Below, piece after piece: positions 6,205 to 32,608 of a DNA stretch of 35,494 nt. Within the stretch, counting starts at the first letter, position 1. Each line of letters starts with the position of its first letter. This DNA is from a virus. Position numbers and translations under genes: made by a program. The DNA is taken from positions 1 through 35,494 of the IMG/VR virus record IMGVR_UViG_3300006641_000086, one strand, 5' to 3'. The notes beneath the pieces were generated by a model. The model searched no databases and was not told the origin of the DNA. It saw only the letters and a list, made by a program, of their open reading frames with translations.

Positions 6205-6921
6205 ATGGCTAGCAATTATGTTGAATGGCAGTTTCAGTTGTTTGATTTGCGCTTGAACCGCCCGATTAGCGATTCCACTGGCACCTGCCAAGTCCTGACG
6301 GCGAGTTCCCCGGCGAAGCTGACGATTTATAGCGATGCCCAAGGCACCAGCGCCACGAACCCCTTGACGTTCTCTAACGGCCAAGTGCGGTTCTTCACCG
6401 ATGTGGCGACGACCTCAGCGGATTTGTCGATCATCACCGCGAACGGGATTGCCCTGTTCTTGCAGGGGGTGACGACAAGCACGCACCGCATCAACGTCGA
6501 TCCTGACCGGATCGAACAGATGGGCATTGTCGCCTGGTTTGCCACCGCCTCAGGCGTGGTGGCGGGGTCCGGCGTGGCCTTGCCGCAAGCCTCTCGCTTG
6601 ATTGACGCTTGGTTGCGGGTGACAACCCCTGCTTCTGGCGCCGTCTTGGATGTGGGGTGCAGCACCACAGTGACCGGCTTCCTTGTGGGGTGCACCGTGG
6701 AAGTCACGGGCTACCGTGTGGTGGATGAAGGATCGACAACCCTTGGCGCACGCGGGACGTTGCTGAACAACGCGGTCACGGCCACGTTGCAGAACATCAC
6801 GAAGATGTACATTCCCGCCAATGCCACGAGCGGCGTGAATATCGTGTGGCAGAACACCACGGCGGCGAGTGCCGGCACAGGTTACATCTACCTCCGATAC
6901 AATCGGATGGTCGGAGCCTAA
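6205..6921 (+). CDS. Beta-rich virion protein, hypothetical
   Basis: A 238-residue protein with an AAGGAG ribosome site before ATG 6205. The N-terminal part (about 1-100) reads like a phage fibre/adaptor module: a product-like segment, an SPAKLTIYSDAQGT strand pair, then NPLTFSNGQVRFFTD. The remainder is alternating hydrophobic and Thr/Gly strands ending in GTGYIYLRYNRMVGA. It is probably a virion surface or head fibre protein. No catalytic motif is seen. Confidence 0.65.
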   Translation: MASNYVEWQFQLFDLRLNRPISDSTGTCQVLTASSPAKLTIYSDAQGTSATNPLTFSNGQVRFFTDVATTSADLSIITANGIALFLQGVTTSTHRINVDPDRIEQMGIVAWFATASGVVAGSGVALPQASRLIDAWLRVTTPASGAVLDVGCSTTVTGFLVGCTVEVTGYRVVDEGSTTLGARGTLLNNAVTATLQNITKMYIPANATSGVNIVWQNTTAASAGTGYIYLRYNRMVGA

Positions 6922-6923
6922 TC

Positions 6924-8600
6924 ATGACGGATATCACCTGTGGCGTACGCGATCAGTCGGACTATTACATCCGGCAGGTGCGCGCCAAAATGATATCCGG
7001 CGAGTATGCGATGGAGTCTGTGTCCTGCGTGTGCGGGAACACAGGCTCCGTCCTCGTCACTGAGCAAGACCGATATGGTATCCCCTATAAGCTGCATTGC
7101 TGTACGACATGCGGCGTGCTCTACGCCTCTCCGCGCATGACAGCAGAGGCATTCATCCAGTTCTACGCGCAGGAATACCGCAAGATTTACGACGAACAGA
7201 CCACGCAAGAGCATGAATTTAAGAGTGCCCACAATGACGGCGGCTCACTCCTTGAGTTGTTACGCGCCTTCGATGTGACCCCAACCAGCGTGATTGACCT
7301 CGGCTGCAATCGTGGCGGGATGCTCCAAGCCTTTGCGGACATTGGATGCCGCGTGCTGGGCATTGATGCCGATCCTACGTCAGTCGCCTATGGACAAGCG
7401 CACGGGCTGAATCTTCGGCATGGCACCTTTGACGATCTCTTGGTGACAGGTGAGAAGGCCGATGTGGTCATTCTGCATCATGTCTTAGAGCACTGCCTAG
7501 ATTTGCCCCATATGCTCGATACCGTGCGGCGTCTGATGAACAAAGATGGCGTGGTGTATATCGGCGTCCCTGGCCTCAAGACGGCCAATCTGACGCGGCT
7601 CTGGCAGCAGGCGCATGTCTACCAATTCACCTATGACACGCTGACGTATGTCATGGAGCATTGTGGATTTGAAGCCCTCTACTGCGATGAGAACATCACG
7701 TCCCTGTGGAAATATACGGGTGCCGTCAGACCGTGGGAAGTGGTCGATCCACAGGCCGCGTCCGCCAATCTGGATTGGATCTTTGCTGAGAAGCGGAAGA
7801 TCCCGGAAATCAAAGTCTTTAACAAGTTCCCGCTGAGTGCGCGGAAGGCCAACATTGACACCATGCTCTCACGCAAATGGCCGGATATGGCCGTGCTGGA
7901 AGGCAAGGAAACAGGCCGCGAAGCTATCGTCATTGGTGGCGGTCCGTCGGTGGATGGGCAGTTAGAAGTCCTCCGCACACTCAAGCAACAGGGCGCGGTG
8001 ATCGTGGCGATTGAGCGCATGTATCAGTGGTGCGTCTCACATGATCTGACCCCTGACTATGTGATCTGCCTCGATGCCAGTGAGGACATTCGGCAATCCT
8101 TGGCGCTGCCCGTCAAAGGCGTGACGCATCTGATAGCCACACAAGTCAACCCGTTCTGTGTCGAACATCTGGACGGCTTGCCGCTGTACATCTTCAACAC
8201 CCCGCAGGGCGGTTTACCCCTGACGGAATACTGGGACAAACACGGCTATACCGATTGCCTGGTGTTGAATGCCGGGGGAAGCGTGAGCCTCGCCGCCATG
8301 AGTGCCAGCCTCTTTCTCGGCTGCCGCTCCCTGCACATCTTCGGGTTTGATTGTCACATTTCTGAGGGGTGCTACGCCTCAGGTATTACAGGAGTCGGGG
8401 CAGTGGCAGACAGTTATGAAGTGGAGATCGGCGAGCAGGTGTTTCGGACCACCAACGCCTATTTCAGCTTTGCACAACAGTTCTTTGTGCTGATGGATAT
8501 AGCGAAACGATTGGGGCATCTCAAGGCAGTGCATCTCTATGGCAACAGTCTGGCCTCCGCGTTGGGGCAAGACGCGATCAAAGGATATAACCATGACTAA
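6924..8600 (+). CDS. SAM-dependent methyltransferase fused to DUF115 (MAF flag10-like) domain
   Basis: A 558-residue two-domain enzyme. Residues about 30-70 hold cysteine pairs (C35/C37, C60/C63) of a zinc knuckle often found before class I methyltransferases. VIDLGCNRGG at about 123-132 is SAM-binding motif I, with an acidic residue after the next strand (GIDAD) and HHVLEH downstream. From about residue 334 a second domain begins with AIVIGGGPSVDG and continues to DYVICLDAS, the pattern of DUF115 (MAF flagellar glycosylation factors and MptE-like pyrophosphokinases). It starts at ATG 6924 behind GGAG and sits between virion protein genes. A role in modifying a sugar or nucleotide-sugar on a surface structure is inference; the substrate is unknown. 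Confidence 0.8.
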   Translation: MTDITCGVRDQSDYYIRQVRAKMISGEYAMESVSCVCGNTGSVLVTEQDRYGIPYKLHCCTTCGVLYASPRMTAEAFIQFYAQEYRKIYDEQTTQEHEFKSAHNDGGSLLELLRAFDVTPTSVIDLGCNRGGMLQAFADIGCRVLGIDADPTSVAYGQAHGLNLRHGTFDDLLVTGEKADVVILHHVLEHCLDLPHMLDTVRRLMNKDGVVYIGVPGLKTANLTRLWQQAHVYQFTYDTLTYVMEHCGFEALYCDENITSLWKYTGAVRPWEVVDPQAASANLDWIFAEKRKIPEIKVFNKFPLSARKANIDTMLSRKWPDMAVLEGKETGREAIVIGGGPSVDGQLEVLRTLKQQGAVIVAIERMYQWCVSHDLTPDYVICLDASEDIRQSLALPVKGVTHLIATQVNPFCVEHLDGLPLYIFNTPQGGLPLTEYWDKHGYTDCLVLNAGGSVSLAAMSASLFLGCRSLHIFGFDCHISEGCYASGITGVGAVADSYEVEIGEQVFRTTNAYFSFAQQFFVLMDIAKRLGHLKAVHLYGNSLASALGQDAIKGYNHD

Positions 8601-9174
8601 GCGGATTGTGTGGCTCGTTCTTGGACTCTGTTGGGTGTTCTCGCCACAGCAGGCGATGGCCGAATGTACCGTCTACACCACCGCGCCCGTCTATATCGCG
8701 GGGAAGCTGGTGCAGAACGTGTGCAACGTGTCCGGTGGGCAATGGACTTCGATGGTGACGCCCGCAGGTGATACGGCGATGGATGAGACGAACGACGCCG
8801 TGAGAACGACGTTAGTCACACAGATATCCGGCGAAGATCAAACGGCTACTAGCGGCGGGAGTGCAACCGGCGTGATGGTCACAGAGCAACGCTATCTGCT
8901 CAGTGCGACGGTCACAGCCGATACACAAATTAAAGCCACAGCGGGATTCATGAAAGACATTACCTGCATTGGCACCGATGCGGCGGCGACGGCAGGCAGT
9001 ATTATTCTCTACAACAACACGACCGAAACATCCCCGGCCATTTTTACGTGGAACGTGGCAGCAGCCGCCGTCCTCACGCCGATCACCTTCCCAATAGATT
9101 TTGTGGCCTCCACGGGCATTTATCTCGGTTTTACGACCACGGCAGATGTGGCCTGTTACGTGCGCTATCGCTAA
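8593..9174 (+). CDS. Secreted beta-rich protein with Sec signal peptide
   Basis: A 193-residue protein starting at ATG 8593, which overlaps the previous stop by 8 bases, with AAAGGA as ribosome site. The N-terminus (KR, then a hydrophobic run, then AMA before ECTVY) is a clear signal peptide with a cleavage site near residue 23. The mature part is Thr/Ala/Gly-rich with probable beta strands and a few cysteines. No domain is recognised. A signal peptide is unexpected for a protein encoded among virion structural genes, so it may be exported from the infected cell or displayed on it. Confidence 0.65.
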   Translation: MTKRIVWLVLGLCWVFSPQQAMAECTVYTTAPVYIAGKLVQNVCNVSGGQWTSMVTPAGDTAMDETNDAVRTTLVTQISGEDQTATSGGSATGVMVTEQRYLLSATVTADTQIKATAGFMKDITCIGTDAAATAGSIILYNNTTETSPAIFTWNVAAAAVLTPITFPIDFVASTGIYLGFTTTADVACYVRYR

Positions 9175-9179
9175 CCACT

Positions 9180-10034
9180 ATGGCACGCCTGTTCGATAAC
9201 AACGCCGCGAACTACATGAGCCGGGGGTCGGTGAACCTTGGCTTCAATGGAGCTACGGCGTGCTCGTTTGCGTTTTGGGTCAATCTGACGGCGCTGAACA
9301 TCACCGCACAACAGAGTTGCATCGCAAAGCCGTTTACGACCGACCACACGCTCAATGCACGGTTTACGGTGAACGCTTCTACGCTCACGCTGGGATTCGA
9401 CAACACCAGCCTGTCGCAATGGCCGACATGGGTCTCGAATACTTCACTCGGCACAGGATCATGGACCCGTGTGCTGTTTGCCTGGGCACGATCAGCGGGG
9501 ACCGGGGCTGATGGCATCCTCTATCTCAACGGAGTCGCCACGACCTGCACGTTTACGGCGAACGGCTACGCAGGCACATTTACGATGGCCGAAGGGAGTA
9601 ATACGCTGGCCTACGGAATCGGCGGGGATCTCGCCACGAAATCGCTGAATGGGGCATTGGCATGGGTCTGTGTGTGGAACCGACAACTCACGGCTACGGA
9701 AGCCCTCGTCGATTACAACGATGCGCGTTCCATCTCACTAGGAAGAATACATTGCGTCGAATGCAATTCCGATACAGATATCAGCGGGTATGGGAACGAT
9801 ATGACCGTAACTGGCACGCTGGCTGATGCGGGGTTTGAACCCACGCAGCGAGAGGGCAGTTTCCTCAATATGGCACAAGCGGATTATCCCGGAGCGGGGC
9901 CAAAATCACCTGCCGTGCGCTTTTACAAATCGCCAACAGGGATCACCACCCCCATCCCTAGCACGGTGGTCTTTCGGAAAACCTTATCGTCGATTGGCAC
10001 ACGCACTGGCTCCCGCCAAGTGCAGTATTCGTAG
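9180..10034 (+). CDS. Concanavalin A/LamG-like lectin-domain protein
   Basis: A 284-residue protein with the layout of a laminin-G-like jelly roll over most of its length. It opens with a sequence resembling FDNNAANYMSRG and then shows the typical order: SFAFWVNLTAL, a strand carrying WTRVLFAWA, GADGILYLNG, and SLNGALAWVCVWNRQLTATEA. The last motif is the LamG C-terminal strand. The C-terminal 60 residues are different and proline-rich. Such domains bind glycans or act as virion surface folds. It starts at ATG 9180, five bases after the preceding stop, with no strong ribosome site, suggesting coupling. Confidence 0.7.
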   Translation: MARLFDNNAANYMSRGSVNLGFNGATACSFAFWVNLTALNITAQQSCIAKPFTTDHTLNARFTVNASTLTLGFDNTSLSQWPTWVSNTSLGTGSWTRVLFAWARSAGTGADGILYLNGVATTCTFTANGYAGTFTMAEGSNTLAYGIGGDLATKSLNGALAWVCVWNRQLTATEALVDYNDARSISLGRIHCVECNSDTDISGYGNDMTVTGTLADAGFEPTQREGSFLNMAQADYPGAGPKSPAVRFYKSPTGITTPIPSTVVFRKTLSSIGTRTGSRQVQYS

Positions 10035-10043
10035 GAGGAATCT

Positions 10044-10640
10044 ATGTCCGCACAAGGATGGAATGAATGTCTGGTCAATCTCACCGCCGCTGGGCAGTTG
10101 TACAACACCTATACCACGGCGAAGTCCATGTTTACGTCTGCTACCGCGCTGGCGGGGGCTTCGTCTGGACTGATTACACTGCCGCCGAACTTCTTTGACC
10201 GTCCAGGGAAAGGCCTGCATATTCAAGGGGTGGCGGGAGTCAGTAACCGCGTGACCGGCCCCGACACCTTCACCATGCAAATCATGGTGGGTGCCGTGAT
10301 TGCCTTTACCACTGGGGCAATCAACCTGACCACCACGGCGCATACGACCATTCCCATGTGGTTTGACATTATGTTGACGGCTCGCACGGTGGGCAACGGC
10401 ACGCTGGCGACCCTGATGGGGCAAGCCTCACTGCACGGTCAGATGGTCGCACAGTTATCAGGATCAGCCGACAATGCCGCAGGCACGGGACGATGTATGG
10501 CCCCGAACACCGCGCCAGCAGTCGGCACAGGGTTTGACTCTACAGTGTCGAATACGCTGGATCTCTTTGTGGCGCAGTCGGTGAGCAACGCCGGGAACGG
10601 CTTTCAGATTCAACAGTACCGCGTATTTGCCATTAACTAA
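10044..10640 (+). CDS. Hypothetical virion protein
   Basis: A 198-residue protein behind an excellent AGGAGG site. Segments such as LPPNFFDRPGKGLHIQGVAG and FTMQIMVGAVIAF, and the Thr/Gly/Ala-rich composition, suggest a beta-sandwich tail or capsid surface protein. No enzymatic motif. Its size and position among virion genes support a structural role. Confidence 0.6.
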   Translation: MSAQGWNECLVNLTAAGQLYNTYTTAKSMFTSATALAGASSGLITLPPNFFDRPGKGLHIQGVAGVSNRVTGPDTFTMQIMVGAVIAFTTGAINLTTTAHTTIPMWFDIMLTARTVGNGTLATLMGQASLHGQMVAQLSGSADNAAGTGRCMAPNTAPAVGTGFDSTVSNTLDLFVAQSVSNAGNGFQIQQYRVFAIN

Positions 10641-27577: not shown

Positions 27578-28477
27578 TTAATGCGTGGTGCACTGTAACA
27601 GACGCTCCTCATGTTTACCTAGCATCGCTTTCACTGGCCCATCCATCACCTGCACATAATGGTCCGTGGCCTGGTAGGTGGTATGGTCTAGCATCCCTTT
27701 ACTCACCGCTGACAGGTTGCCGCACGTATCATTCGCCCATGTTGACCCCGTGCGCCGTAGGTCATAGCACCACACATGCGGGAGATTGGCGGCAGTTCTG
27801 ATGCTGTCCCATTTTGCAAACCAAAACTCTTTGGACAGCGGCTTCCCATTGCGCCCTGGAAACATCCACAACCCATCAGGGGCCAGCGTGGGGATATATA
27901 ACGCATACATCTCCGCCAGCGCCGGAGGGAGCGGTATCGTATGCTCCCGTGATGTCTTTGTCGATCCTTTGGGCTTCGTCCATAATCCCTGCCATATATC
28001 GCCTTCCTTCCATACCCGTACATCGTTCTTGTGTTGATGCTGTAGCTCTGTAGGCCGACAGGCCAGGATCAATGACGCATAGAAATACAGGCGTGGTTGC
28101 AGGGGTTGCGCGAAGATGGACGCCAACGCCTGTGGCATTTCATGCTCTCTGATGTAGGTTTTCCGCATGGGCTGGCGTTCATTCTTAATCCTGGCAGCCA
28201 GGTTAGGGCCGCTGTAGAGTTCCCATTCCACCGCCTTGTTATACAAGTGTCGTAAGTCTTTAAGGCACCCCATCGCTTGCACGGCACTGTGCGCCTTGAT
28301 ACTATTCCTCCACCGCGTAATGTCGATGACGCTGAGTTCAGCGAGCGGCCTGTCATACAGTGGGGGGAAATACTTCAGCATACGGGAACGGAGCGGGCGC
28401 GGGTCTTTCAATAGGGGAACGTGCAGCTCGAAAAACAAATCCACGAGGGCTTTGACTGTGACAGGCTTGATAGACAT
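27578..28477 (-). CDS. Tyrosine recombinase (phage integrase)
   Basis: A 299-residue site-specific recombinase. An N-terminal core-binding region (about 1-105, helical SAM-like) precedes the catalytic domain. Catalytic positions visible are R141 (ACRPTEL), R241 in YDLRR, H265 in LDH and the nucleophile Y274 in TDHYVQ; the beta-hairpin lysine is K168 or K174. The usual histidine of the HxxR box is Y238 here. Full length suggests activity. It would insert the phage chromosome into the host's and implies a temperate lifestyle. GGAGG precedes the ATG. It is transcribed opposite to structural and early genes and probably together with the cysteine-rich peptide. Confidence 0.9.
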   Translation of the reverse strand: MSIKPVTVKALVDLFFELHVPLLKDPRPLRSRMLKYFPPLYDRPLAELSVIDITRWRNSIKAHSAVQAMGCLKDLRHLYNKAVEWELYSGPNLAARIKNERQPMRKTYIREHEMPQALASIFAQPLQPRLYFYASLILACRPTELQHQHKNDVRVWKEGDIWQGLWTKPKGSTKTSREHTIPLPPALAEMYALYIPTLAPDGLWMFPGRNGKPLSKEFWFAKWDSIRTAANLPHVWCYDLRRTGSTWANDTCGNLSAVSKGMLDHTTYQATDHYVQVMDGPVKAMLGKHEERLLQCTTH

Positions 28478-30833: not shown

Positions 30834-31069
30834 TGCCTATTTACCCCTGTCTGCGAGGATCTAGCGACTGCTCCATGTGTTCTGTCGAAATGCCGTGGCA
30901 TTGGAGCGGGTTGTGTGAACATTGCCGGGCTGAGACGCCATGCAGGAAGTGCGGGGAGATCTTGAAAGAGTACATGCTAGTTGAGTTGTGTGAGTCCTGT
31001 TACCGAACTGAACCGTTTCGCTATCGGCTCGTGCCGAAAAGGAGGACTGGTGGAATCGTCTCAAAGTGA
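30833..31069 (+). CDS. Multi-CxxC zinc-binding protein
   Basis: A 78-residue protein from ATG 30833 (TGATG overlap, GGGAGGG site). Four CxxC knuckles occur in order (CSMC, CEHC, CRKC, CESC), enough for two zinc ribbons, followed by a basic tail. Such small proteins often bind nucleic acid or bridge proteins. It ends inside the ERF gene's start region and may be coupled to it. Confidence 0.6.
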   Translation: MPIYPCLRGSSDCSMCSVEMPWHWSGLCEHCRAETPCRKCGEILKEYMLVELCESCYRTEPFRYRLVPKRRTGGIVSK

Positions 31070-31802
31070 GTCAATCAACGAACTAGCGGCGGCGATTGTC
31101 AAGGCGCAACTGGCCTTGGTGCCGGCAGCCAAGGATCATGTCAACCCATTCTTTAAGTCAAAGTATGCAGATCTTCCTACGGTATGGGAAGCCGCGGCAC
31201 CATTCAGGGACAACGGCATCGCAATCACGCAGAGTCCCATGGATGCGCCGGATGAGTACATTGTGCTGGATACGCAGCTCTCGCATACCAGCGGCCAATG
31301 GATGCGCTCACGGCTGAAGATTCGGGTAGCCAAGAATGACCCTCAAGGCTATGGCTCAGCCCTCACCTATGCGAGGCGGTATGCCCTTGGCAGCATGACC
31401 GGCATTGTGACGGAAGAGGATGACGATGGAGCAGCGGCGAGTCCACAACCACAAGGACGCTATGCTTCTGGAATCTTTGCGAATACCAGCAAGCAGACGG
31501 CACAGGCGAAGATTGCCGAACTCGCCAAGGAGATGCAGGAACCAGCGCGGCAGACTGGCGCTACAGGCGTGTCCGTTGGAACGATGGCCTCCGAGGAGGA
31601 GGCCCCAATAAGGAGCGATGCTGCCGCGCCCTTCATCTGGCGTGTAGGGAAGAACAGGGGAAAGGCTGTCACAGATATTAGCCTAGATGACCTCATTTGG
31701 TCGGCTACCAATATCAAGATGACCGATCACAAGCAAGCCGCTCAGGATGAGATTGATCGCAGACAAAAACAAGATGTAATGGCGTTTGAGGGGCAGGAAT
31801 AA
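31050..31802 (+). CDS. erf: ERF-family single-strand annealing recombinase
   Basis: A 250-residue protein from GTG 31050, chosen for the perfect AAAAGGAGG site 5 bases before it. Residues about 10-125 are the ERF core: NPFFKSKYADLPTVWE (32-47), a GIAITQSP strand, and GYGSALTYARRYALGSMTGIVTEEDDDG (100-127). A disordered linker follows, then a C-terminal segment (about 196-235, FIWRVGKNRGKAVTDISLDDL) like a small domain attached to nucleases and recombinases. ERF proteins anneal single strands and help circularise or recombine phage DNA. No exonuclease partner gene is seen in the window. Confidence 0.88.
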   Translation: MESSQSESINELAAAIVKAQLALVPAAKDHVNPFFKSKYADLPTVWEAAAPFRDNGIAITQSPMDAPDEYIVLDTQLSHTSGQWMRSRLKIRVAKNDPQGYGSALTYARRYALGSMTGIVTEEDDDGAAASPQPQGRYASGIFANTSKQTAQAKIAELAKEMQEPARQTGATGVSVGTMASEEEAPIRSDAAAPFIWRVGKNRGKAVTDISLDDLIWSATNIKMTDHKQAAQDEIDRRQKQDVMAFEGQE

Positions 31803-31807
31803 CGAAT

Positions 31808-31915
31808 GGATCAGGCGAGAAACCTGTCTCACAGCAGGAAGTTGGATCTCGTGACAAGACAAACATCTGTGAGGATGCGCTTGTACGCCGGTTCGATTCC
31901 GGTCCTGATCCACCA
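31808..31915 (+). ncRNA. tRNA-like cloverleaf with encoded CCA and kissing arms
   Basis: Eight bases (GGATCAGG, 31808-31815) pair perfectly with CCTGATCC (31904-31911), followed by ACCA. A canonical T-arm (GCCGG-TTCGATT-CCGGT, 31887-31903) stacks on this stem. In place of D and anticodon arms are two longer arms. Arm 1: CGAGA 31816-31820 with TCTCG 31847-31851, and inner CCTG/CAGG closing loop TCTCACAG. Arm 2: ACAAG 31854-31858 with CTTGT 31880-31884, and inner CATC/GATG closing loop TGTGAG. The loop of arm 2 is complementary over 6 bases to CTCACA in loop 1. No standard anticodon arm exists, so it is not an ordinary tRNA. RNase P processing at 31808 is a reasonable prediction. Starts 5 bases after the ERF stop. 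Confidence 0.65.
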
Positions 31916-31923
31916 ATACGGGT

Positions 31924-32012
31924 TGCTGGTGAACCGTTGAAACCAGCATTGAGGCACCTGTCTGTACGAAGCAGGTGACGGGGAGGGGCCGCTAGAGGTG
32001 GCGGCTCCTCCT
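31924..32012 (+). ncRNA. Array of three strong hairpins
   Basis: Three stems follow the tRNA-like element: TGCTGGT/ACCAGCA (31924-31948, 11-nt loop), CACCTG/CAGGTG (31955-31977, 11-nt loop) and a 12-bp GC-rich stem (31981-32012, loop TAGAGGTG). The second hairpin repeats the ACCTGTCT...GCAGG sequence of arm 1 in the preceding tRNA-like element. None is followed by a T-run, so they are not terminators. Together with the flanking elements they indicate one or more folded RNAs. Confidence 0.5.
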
Positions 32013-32023
32013 GACAGGGAGAA

Positions 32024-32239
32024 TGTGCAGGCGGCGTGATGGGAACACGCTCGGAACAGTCAGCGTATCTAGGGTTACTACCGGGGTTCTGTGACCGATG
32101 CGAACCGTGGCGGCGGAAGGTCTGGGGGCGGGTACGCGGGAACGGTCCGGCACACTGTAGATACGATGGCCGCTATAGACGATGGGGCTGCGCTGACGGC
32201 TGAAGGCCCCGCAAGCCGGTTCAAATCCGGCCCTGCACA
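32024..32239 (+). ncRNA. Second, larger tRNA-like closed structure
   Basis: TGTGCAGG (32024-32031) pairs with CCTGCACA (32232-32239). A canonical T-arm (GCCGG-TTCAAAT-CCGGC, 32215-32231) stacks on it, and a D-arm-like hairpin (GCGTG-ATGGGAA-CACGC, 32034-32050) follows the 5' strand after two bases, as in tRNA. The place of the anticodon arm is taken by ~145 bases with long-range helices: GTCAG 32059-32063 with CTGAC 32193-32197, and CGTATCT 32064-32070 with AGATACG 32159-32165. CCA is not encoded in full (ACCTG). It is not a normal tRNA and I see no tmRNA tag frame or group I intron core. It ends 18 bases before the next gene. Confidence 0.55.
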
Positions 32240-32257
32240 CCTGACAATGGAGGAATC

Positions 32258-32608
32258 ATGCGCTGTACTCGATGTGGAGGGCTTGTACTAGAACAGCATG
32301 GATCATTCGCGTGTGTGAATTGTAGTCACGACCCATTCTTAGTCCTCATCACCGTCAAGTGCAGCACCGCTGACTGCCGCATGCTGCCTGAACTGTTTGG
32401 CTATTGCGCGACCTGTTGGCATAGCCGCAAGCGGAGTGAACTAAGTGACGCAGAACGCAGCAGAAAGTATCGGGAGTTGATGCGCGGCAAACAACGGGCG
32501 AGACGGGCGAAAGCCAAGGAGTTAAAGCGTGAGCAGTCCAACACAGCGCAGCAAGAGCCATGCGGACAGGAAAATGATTCTCTTGAAAGCCTGTTACGAC
32601 ATGCTTAG
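32258..32608 (+). CDS. Zinc-finger protein with basic tail
   Basis: A 116-residue protein behind GGAGG. Residues 3-22 (CTRCG, then CVNC) form one zinc ribbon and residues about 35-53 (CSTADC, then CATC) a second. From about residue 58 a strongly basic helix (SRKYRELMRGKQRARRAKAKE) could contact DNA or RNA. It follows directly after the structured RNA region and might bind it, but this is speculation. Confidence 0.6.
   Translation: MRCTRCGGLVLEQHGSFACVNCSHDPFLVLITVKCSTADCRMLPELFGYCATCWHSRKRSELSDAERSRKYRELMRGKQRARRAKAKELKREQSNTAQQEPCGQENDSLESLLRHA

Follow-up and report, generated by a model that had tools for sequence, protein, structure and literature searches.

Is an RNA that ends like a tRNA, with an acceptor stem, a T-arm and an encoded CCA, but in which no usable anticodon is found, a tRNA at all, and if not, what does it do for the phage that encodes it? 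This question is raised by a 108-nt element, here called E1, in IMG/VR virus record IMGVR_UViG_3300006641_000086 (35,494 bases; the window below is this whole stretch of DNA). Phages carry tRNAs and were recently shown to alter them to escape tRNA-cutting defences, and tRNA mimics of viruses and bacteria are known kinds. Conservation in phages of an RNA in which the enzyme-binding parts of a tRNA are retained and its decoding part is lost would show that tRNA imitation itself is a phage tool.

The window encodes a P22-like portal, a major head protein, a head closure protein, an ERF recombinase, an HNH endonuclease and a tyrosine integrase. The portal, head and integrase genes agree with the phage origin that had been assigned to E1 in the initial annotation, and by this gene content the source is a tailed, probably temperate phage, for which a portal search in genomes returned no host. 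A second record, IMGVR_UViG_3300025872_000103 (G001; 42,759 bases), overlaps the window at 99.99-100% identity. The overlaps lie at both ends and in permuted order, which suggests that the two records together represent a circular or circularly permuted genome of about 43 kb. Among the structural genes, positions 6846-8600 of the window encode a protein that combines a methyltransferase domain with an MptE-like domain (PF01973). On the plus strand, the order around E1 is recombinase, E1, a stretch of three hairpins, a second tRNA-like RNA (E2) and a gene for a protein with CxxC pairs:

27578-28477: tyrosine integrase, 3.3 kb from E1
30981-31802, plus strand: ERF-type single-strand annealing recombinase (phrog_2324, PF04404), stop codon 5 nt before E1
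31808-31915, plus strand: E1, tRNA-like RNA with two inserted hairpins and a putative kiss, described from sequence, fold and a relative (L059:10482-10589, minus strand; also L060 and L062)
31808-31815, plus strand: 5' strand of the E1 acceptor stem, GGATCAGG, pairing with 31904-31911
31816-31851, plus strand: E1 arm 1, D-arm-like, with P1 (CGAGA/TCTCG), the P2 insert (31823-31838) and AGTTGGA (31840-31846)
31828-31833, plus strand: kissing sequence CTCACA in the P2 loop, complementary to 31868-31873 and invariant in both phages that carry E1
31854-31884, plus strand: E1 arm 2, anticodon-arm-like, with P3 (ACAAG/CTTGT) and the P4 insert (31864-31877)
31868-31873, plus strand: kissing sequence TGTGAG in the P4 loop, complementary to 31828-31833 and likewise invariant in both phages
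31887-31903, plus strand: E1 T-arm GCCGG-TTCGATT-CCGGT, with the canonical pattern G53-T-T-C-R-A-N-N-C61
31904-31915, plus strand: 3' strand of the E1 acceptor stem, CCTGATCC, and the ACCA end, from the sequence and the same in the relative
31924-32012, plus strand: conserved stretch of three hairpins that separates E1 from E2 and is retained by relatives without either element
32025-32241, plus strand: E2, a further tRNA-like RNA whose family has at least four members in phages, identified by its frame, relatives and covariation
32258-32608, plus strand: small protein with CxxC pairs, 3' of E2, conserved in relatives, likely zinc-binding from its sequence and without a match in PHROG or Pfam

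The initial annotation had described E1 as an 8-bp closing stem followed by ACCA, a canonical TTCGATT T-arm, and two two-step arms whose loops are complementary over six bases, and all of these elements are present in the sequence where they had been placed. The closing stem is formed by GGATCAGG and CCTGATCC. Arm 1 consists of CGAGA/TCTCG and CCTG/CAGG with the loop TCTCACAG, arm 2 of ACAAG/CTTGT and CATC/GATG with the loop TGTGAG, and the complementary bases of the two loops are CTCACA and TGTGAG. A seventh loop-loop pair, G27-C60, is possible and would compete with the closing pair of the arm 2 hairpin. The two arms had also been regarded as extra, which they do not appear to be. Arm 1 is better read as a D-arm that keeps a D-loop-like AGUUGGA, with a 16-nt hairpin (P2) inserted in the 5' half of the D-loop, and arm 2 as an anticodon-like arm whose 5-bp stem carries an inserted 14-nt hairpin (P4). 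Hence, E1 would be a modified cloverleaf rather than a different fold. The D/anticodon stack ends in two loops, from which the inserted hairpins grow, and it is plausible that P2, the kiss and P4 form a helix of about 14 bp beside this stack. Both the D-loop-like stretch in arm 1 and the presence of E2 had been missed in the initial annotation.

E1 thus has the acceptor stem, T-arm and CCA of a tRNA, and the prediction programs do not call it one. As had been claimed, there is no confident standard tRNA prediction: ARAGORN reports 0 genes, and the tRNA model RF00005 does not match E1 even at E<=10, while 14 of 14 control genomes score above its cut-off. ARAGORN at default settings also returns nothing for E1 with both hairpins left out. 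Calls obtained with introns allowed or with lowered thresholds are inconsistent (Leu, His, Ser, Pro) and were rejected. Enumeration of both E1 sequences yields no 7-nt loop with U33 on a 5-bp stem that is compatible with the acceptor stem and T-arm. The broader claim that no 7-nt loop can be drawn on a 5-bp stem comes close to being correct: ACAGG/TCTGT of the relative closes the 7-nt loop CCAAACA, which lacks U33, and the corresponding stem of the window has an A-C mismatch. Without P4, the 5-bp stem of arm 2 closes a 7-nt loop (ACAAACG), again lacking U33.

Known RNA families did not account for E1 either. The Rfam comparison that had been proposed left E1 without a match at the gathering threshold, and an ARAGORN tmRNA search of the window was negative. 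GOLLD and ROOL had no match in the window at the gathering threshold, nor at E<=10 in positions 31700-32400, where the relaxed scan returned T-arm-sized tmRNA pieces plus unrelated weak matches. For E1 alone, the scan at E<=10 returned T-arm-sized pieces of tmRNA models and YrlA, with GOLLD, ROOL, tRNA and tRNA-Sec absent.

We examined how often the features of E1 arise by chance. The combination of acceptor stem and canonical T-arm had 0 matches in 40 shuffles of the window, both strands included. In 801 kb of phage sequence, a set that includes repeat copies of the same records, it matched, outside called tRNAs, only E1, E2 and the relatives of E2. Two hairpins with loops complementary over at least 6 bases and outer stems of at least 5 pairs each occurred in 1 of 20,000 dinucleotide shuffles of the inner 71 nt of E1, and kissing hairpin pairs alone in 371 of 20,000; this test overstates the significance, as the motif had been seen before it was defined. 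The best nested fold of E1 is 2.3 sd more stable than shuffles. In the window, the minimum free energy (MFE) fold (-38.4 kcal/mol) differs from the nested part of the proposed one (-33.7 kcal/mol); in the relative, the MFE fold reproduces the acceptor stem, P1, P3, P4 and the T-arm. ViennaRNA cannot score the kissing pair, and the two loops as an isolated duplex come to about -7 kcal/mol. A nested pairing of CTCACAG with CTGTGAG in place of the kiss is energetically possible (-34.8 kcal/mol, versus -33.7 kcal/mol for the two-arm fold without the kissing pair), and was set aside because it leaves a paired change between the two phages, U18/A29 to C18/G29, unexplained.

One other distinct E1 sequence was found, in two records with identical E1 (L059 and L060; the phage of L062/L059 is referred to as G030). 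It lies at the same place and is identical to the window at 103 of 108 bases. IMG/VR scans with three patterns (T-arm/acceptor, kissing pair plus T-arm, D-arm of E1) returned the same three records every time. Searches in isolated phages and plasmids gave T-arm-sized matches only, and a genome scan with the kissing pattern gave no match. A covariance-model search, which the initial annotation had proposed, covered 31 records that had supplied relatives of the recombinase, plus 6 others; it recovered the known copies and nothing new. E1 is known from only two distinct sequences of one phage group.

All five differences between these sequences fit the fold. Two of them form a single compensatory pair in P2 (U18-A29 to C18-G29), one changes A-U to G-U in P3, and two fall at unpaired positions. 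The comparison of two sequences is suggestive, not proof, and the shuffle control on their alignment (251 of 500) has no power. Compensatory changes in both arms and in the loop-loop pairing had been named as a check on the fold. Arm 1 provides one such pair and arm 2 only the A-U to G-U change, and the loop-loop pairing offers no covariation, since neither loop varies between the two sequences.

The second phage is 87.7% identical to the window over the portal region. Around E1, identity is 84% in the 61 bases before and 81% in the 104 bases after. Of the 108-nt windows aligned between the two phages, E1 belongs to the top 3%, the rest of which come from the portal/head gene region. The recombinase gene preceding E1 (30981-31802) is mostly different in L062, where only the beginning of this region and its final codons are clearly shared. 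This pattern reads as gene replacement between conserved ends, with E1 retained directly after the stop codon.

The stretch of three hairpins that follows E1 lies between the recombinase and CxxC genes, shows pairing-preserving changes among three phages (window 31924-32012; L003:4769-4884; L062, 3' of E1), and contains CCTGTC/GACAGG repeats that could pair alternatively. E1 and E2 are both missing from L003, a more distant phage (recombinase 69% identical) that shares the genes and the three hairpins, and in the G030 phage E1 and the hairpins are present and only E2 is missing. Where E2 would lie, L062/L059 carry GCCGGTG...GGCAACGAGGTTGCC-CACCGGC-TCCA, an element of about 70 nt with an acceptor-like stem and no T-loop, possibly a smaller tRNA-like element, although the resemblance may be chance.

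E2 begins 109 bases downstream of E1 and is better supported as a tRNA-like RNA than E1. It comprises a 7-bp acceptor stem (8 bp with T32024-A32239), a CG linker, a D-arm, a 164-nt middle and a canonical T-arm. When IMG/VR was scanned for exact matches to the D-arm GCGTGATGGGAACACGC alone, five further records were returned, three of which carry the whole frame; the other two lack it. The parts of E2 and its three relatives are:

32034-32050, plus strand: E2 D-arm GCGTG-ATGGGAA-CACGC, preceded by an invariant CG, with exact matches in the L086, L087 and L088 elements
32215-32238, plus strand: E2 T-arm GCCGG-TTCAAAT-CCGGC (32215-32231) and acceptor 3' strand CCTGCAC (32232-32238)
L086:3554-3673, plus strand: E2-type copy of 120 nt, acceptor CGATCGG/CCGATCG
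L087, reverse complement of 1172-1293: E2-type copy of 122 nt, acceptor GGCGCGG/CCGCGCC
L088, reverse complement of 10267-10442: E2-type copy of 176 nt, acceptor GCAGCAG/CTGCTGC

The T-arm and acceptor stem occur at the expected places in all three relatives, though neither was part of the search pattern. Among the four RNAs, the acceptor stems differ in sequence yet are perfectly paired, the T-arm is canonical, and the middle varies from 70 to 164 nt. In the four cores 100% of the cells pair, with 8 doubly changed pairs, a result that none of 500 shuffles equalled. Free folding of the L086 and L087 copies recovered acceptor stem, D-arm and T-arm without constraint. The invariance of the D-arm is partly due to the exact search; the CG that precedes it lay outside the search pattern. 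We propose to define the family by a 7-bp acceptor stem, the CG linker, the D-arm GCGTGATGGGAACACGC, and a canonical T-arm abutting the 3' acceptor strand, a combination found in E2 and the L086, L087 and L088 copies. No Rfam family matches the window member, and the covariation is strong evidence that the frame represents an RNA family absent from Rfam.

With introns allowed, ARAGORN called E2 a tRNA-Val(GAC) with a 138-nt intron. This candidate was rejected: the other members give different anticodons or no call, and the middle is unconserved. In this mode, ARAGORN also made 1 call in 20 random sequences of window length. The relatives of E2 argue against a decoding role. The phages that carry these RNAs appear unrelated in the gene content examined; the L086 record, for example, encodes a RecA-like protein. 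The L088 copy (L098, G034, around 8799-9975) occupies a position about 170 nt upstream of a tyrosine integrase gene, where attachment sites are typically located. A partial tRNA match of 26.4 bits is found elsewhere in this record, at G034:28477-28533.

The T-arms of E1 and E2 are near-identical (GCCGG-TTCRAWT-CCGGY) and both elements have CAGG/CCTG in the inner acceptor stem, so that a common origin is possible. E1 has no D-arm motif of the E2 type, and was kept apart from the family. A padded BLAST search with short motifs returned nothing, perhaps because the motif is too short to register. No description of E1 or E2 was found in the literature, most subscription papers being beyond the reach of the search. 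The kissing hairpins inserted in both loops and the E2 family are not found in Rfam or in the literature searched, mostly open papers. The E2 family makes the idea of tRNA imitation testable, because it has four members, unambiguous covariation in the acceptor stem and a fixed D-arm that can be looked for in any collection of phages.

What would such RNAs do? The presence of two tRNA-like elements in one phage suggests imitations made for a purpose other than translation. We tentatively favour the reading, a serious possibility rather than a probable one, that E1 is a non-decoding tRNA mimic of a temperate phage, processed by the host and acting in trans on a tRNA-binding protein. P2 and P4 would kiss and create a second helix beside the D/anticodon stack, fixing the shape of E1 and leaving no usable anticodon. 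Host RNase P would cut at G1, which lies 5 nt beyond the recombinase stop codon, and 3' trimming would expose the encoded CCA. The freed RNA of about 108 nt might then occupy a host protein that recognises the acceptor or elbow of tRNA; candidate partners are tRNA-maturation, tRNA-modifying, translation and tRNA-directed defence proteins. Its role might be that of a decoy, a regulator or a processing signal. E2, from a separate family with a fixed D-arm, would likely act similarly.

The main reason for favouring a role in trans is that a single intergenic region holds two different tRNA-like RNAs, and that the family of one of them extends across unrelated phages. Further reasons are the fold and chance controls, the conservation of E1 in a second phage with none but fold-compatible changes, its retention next to a differing recombinase, the covariation in the family of E2, and the absence of an ordinary tRNA call. 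Against it stand the invariant kissing pair, the nested fold that differs from the MFE fold, and the origin of both E1 sequences in one phage group. A wider proposal is more doubtful: unrelated phage groups may make non-decoding tRNA mimics with a shared acceptor, D-arm and T-arm frame and a variable middle, which occupy or redirect host tRNA-binding proteins, E1 being a specialised form with a kissing-loop clamp in place of its anticodon arm. If so, such mimics could serve, for instance, as bait in infection conflicts over tRNA.

E1 might instead act in cis, as a signal at which RNase P and a 3' tRNA nuclease separate the recombinase from the downstream message, the excised RNA having no role. 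The start of E1 5 nt past the stop codon, the TAACGAAT leader kept in both phages, the co-directional genes, and the failure to find any promoter-like or terminator-like site near E1 would suit such a signal. Yet a plain acceptor stem and T-arm would suffice for it, which leaves the conserved inserted hairpins with complementary loops unexplained, and L003 has the same gene order without E1. We consider this explanation unlikely.

Phage tRNA genes decay, and the 3' ends of tRNAs are common attachment sites. That E1 is a decayed tRNA gene or an integration-site leftover would fit the tyrosine integrase in the window and the E2-family member next to an integrase (L098), but few stretches that the two phages have in common are as well conserved as E1, its acceptor stem is intact on both strands, the changes keep pairing, and the window integrase is 3.3 kb away, all of which makes such an origin improbable. 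Still less probable is a working tRNA with unusual insertions, perhaps hiding its anticodon until the hairpins are opened or removed. The 7-nt loops on 5-bp stems, ACAAACG without P4 and CCAAACA in the relative, would permit it; both lack U33, ARAGORN is empty by default and contradicts itself at low thresholds, and RF00005 is silent at E<=10. Least probable is a longer cis-regulatory or non-coding RNA (31808-32245) with E1 as one part. E1, the three hairpins and E2 do follow each other between the same two genes, but assort independently in L003 and G030.

The proposed mimic can be compared with several known RNAs. Canonical phage tRNA genes (RF00005) share with E1 the acceptor stem, T-arm, D-loop-like GG, encoded CCA and location in a phage early region. 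In contrast, hairpins interrupt the D-loop and anticodon-type loop of E1, U33 and a usable anticodon are lacking, and neither ARAGORN nor the tRNA model detects it. Bacterial tRNA-Sec (SelC) has an 8-bp acceptor stem and a 5-bp T-stem (a 13-bp stack). E1 resembles it in these lengths only: E1 has no tRNA-Sec match at E<=10, no long D-stem with a short loop, no UCA anticodon arm and no long variable arm. tmRNAs, including permuted forms (RF04321, RF01850), have a tRNA-like acceptor and T-arm with CCA. Their models match only the T-arm/acceptor region of E1 (16.0 and 11.9 bits; 9.5-16.0 bits overall, versus cut-offs of 84 and 47), and E1 contains no tag reading frame and no remainder of the tmRNA fold.

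YrlA (RF02553) is a tRNA-like module with a T-arm in a non-decoding RNA and is not known to have a CCA end of its own. In the scan of E1 alone it matches the T-arm region partially (14.3 bits, cut off at the 3' end; cut-off 69 bits), and a scan of the record at E<=10 gave no YrlA match. The tRNA cluster of phage T4 reportedly yields stable non-tRNA RNAs, species 1 and 2, which may resemble E1 as phage RNAs of tRNA-like size without a decoding role. Finally, the tRNA-like structures of plant RNA viruses are virus-encoded tRNA imitations recognised by tRNA enzymes (PMC5723415, a review; PMC13191261). Those structures are pseudoknotted 3' ends of RNA genomes, whereas E1 has an ordinary acceptor stem and lies inside the genome of a DNA phage.
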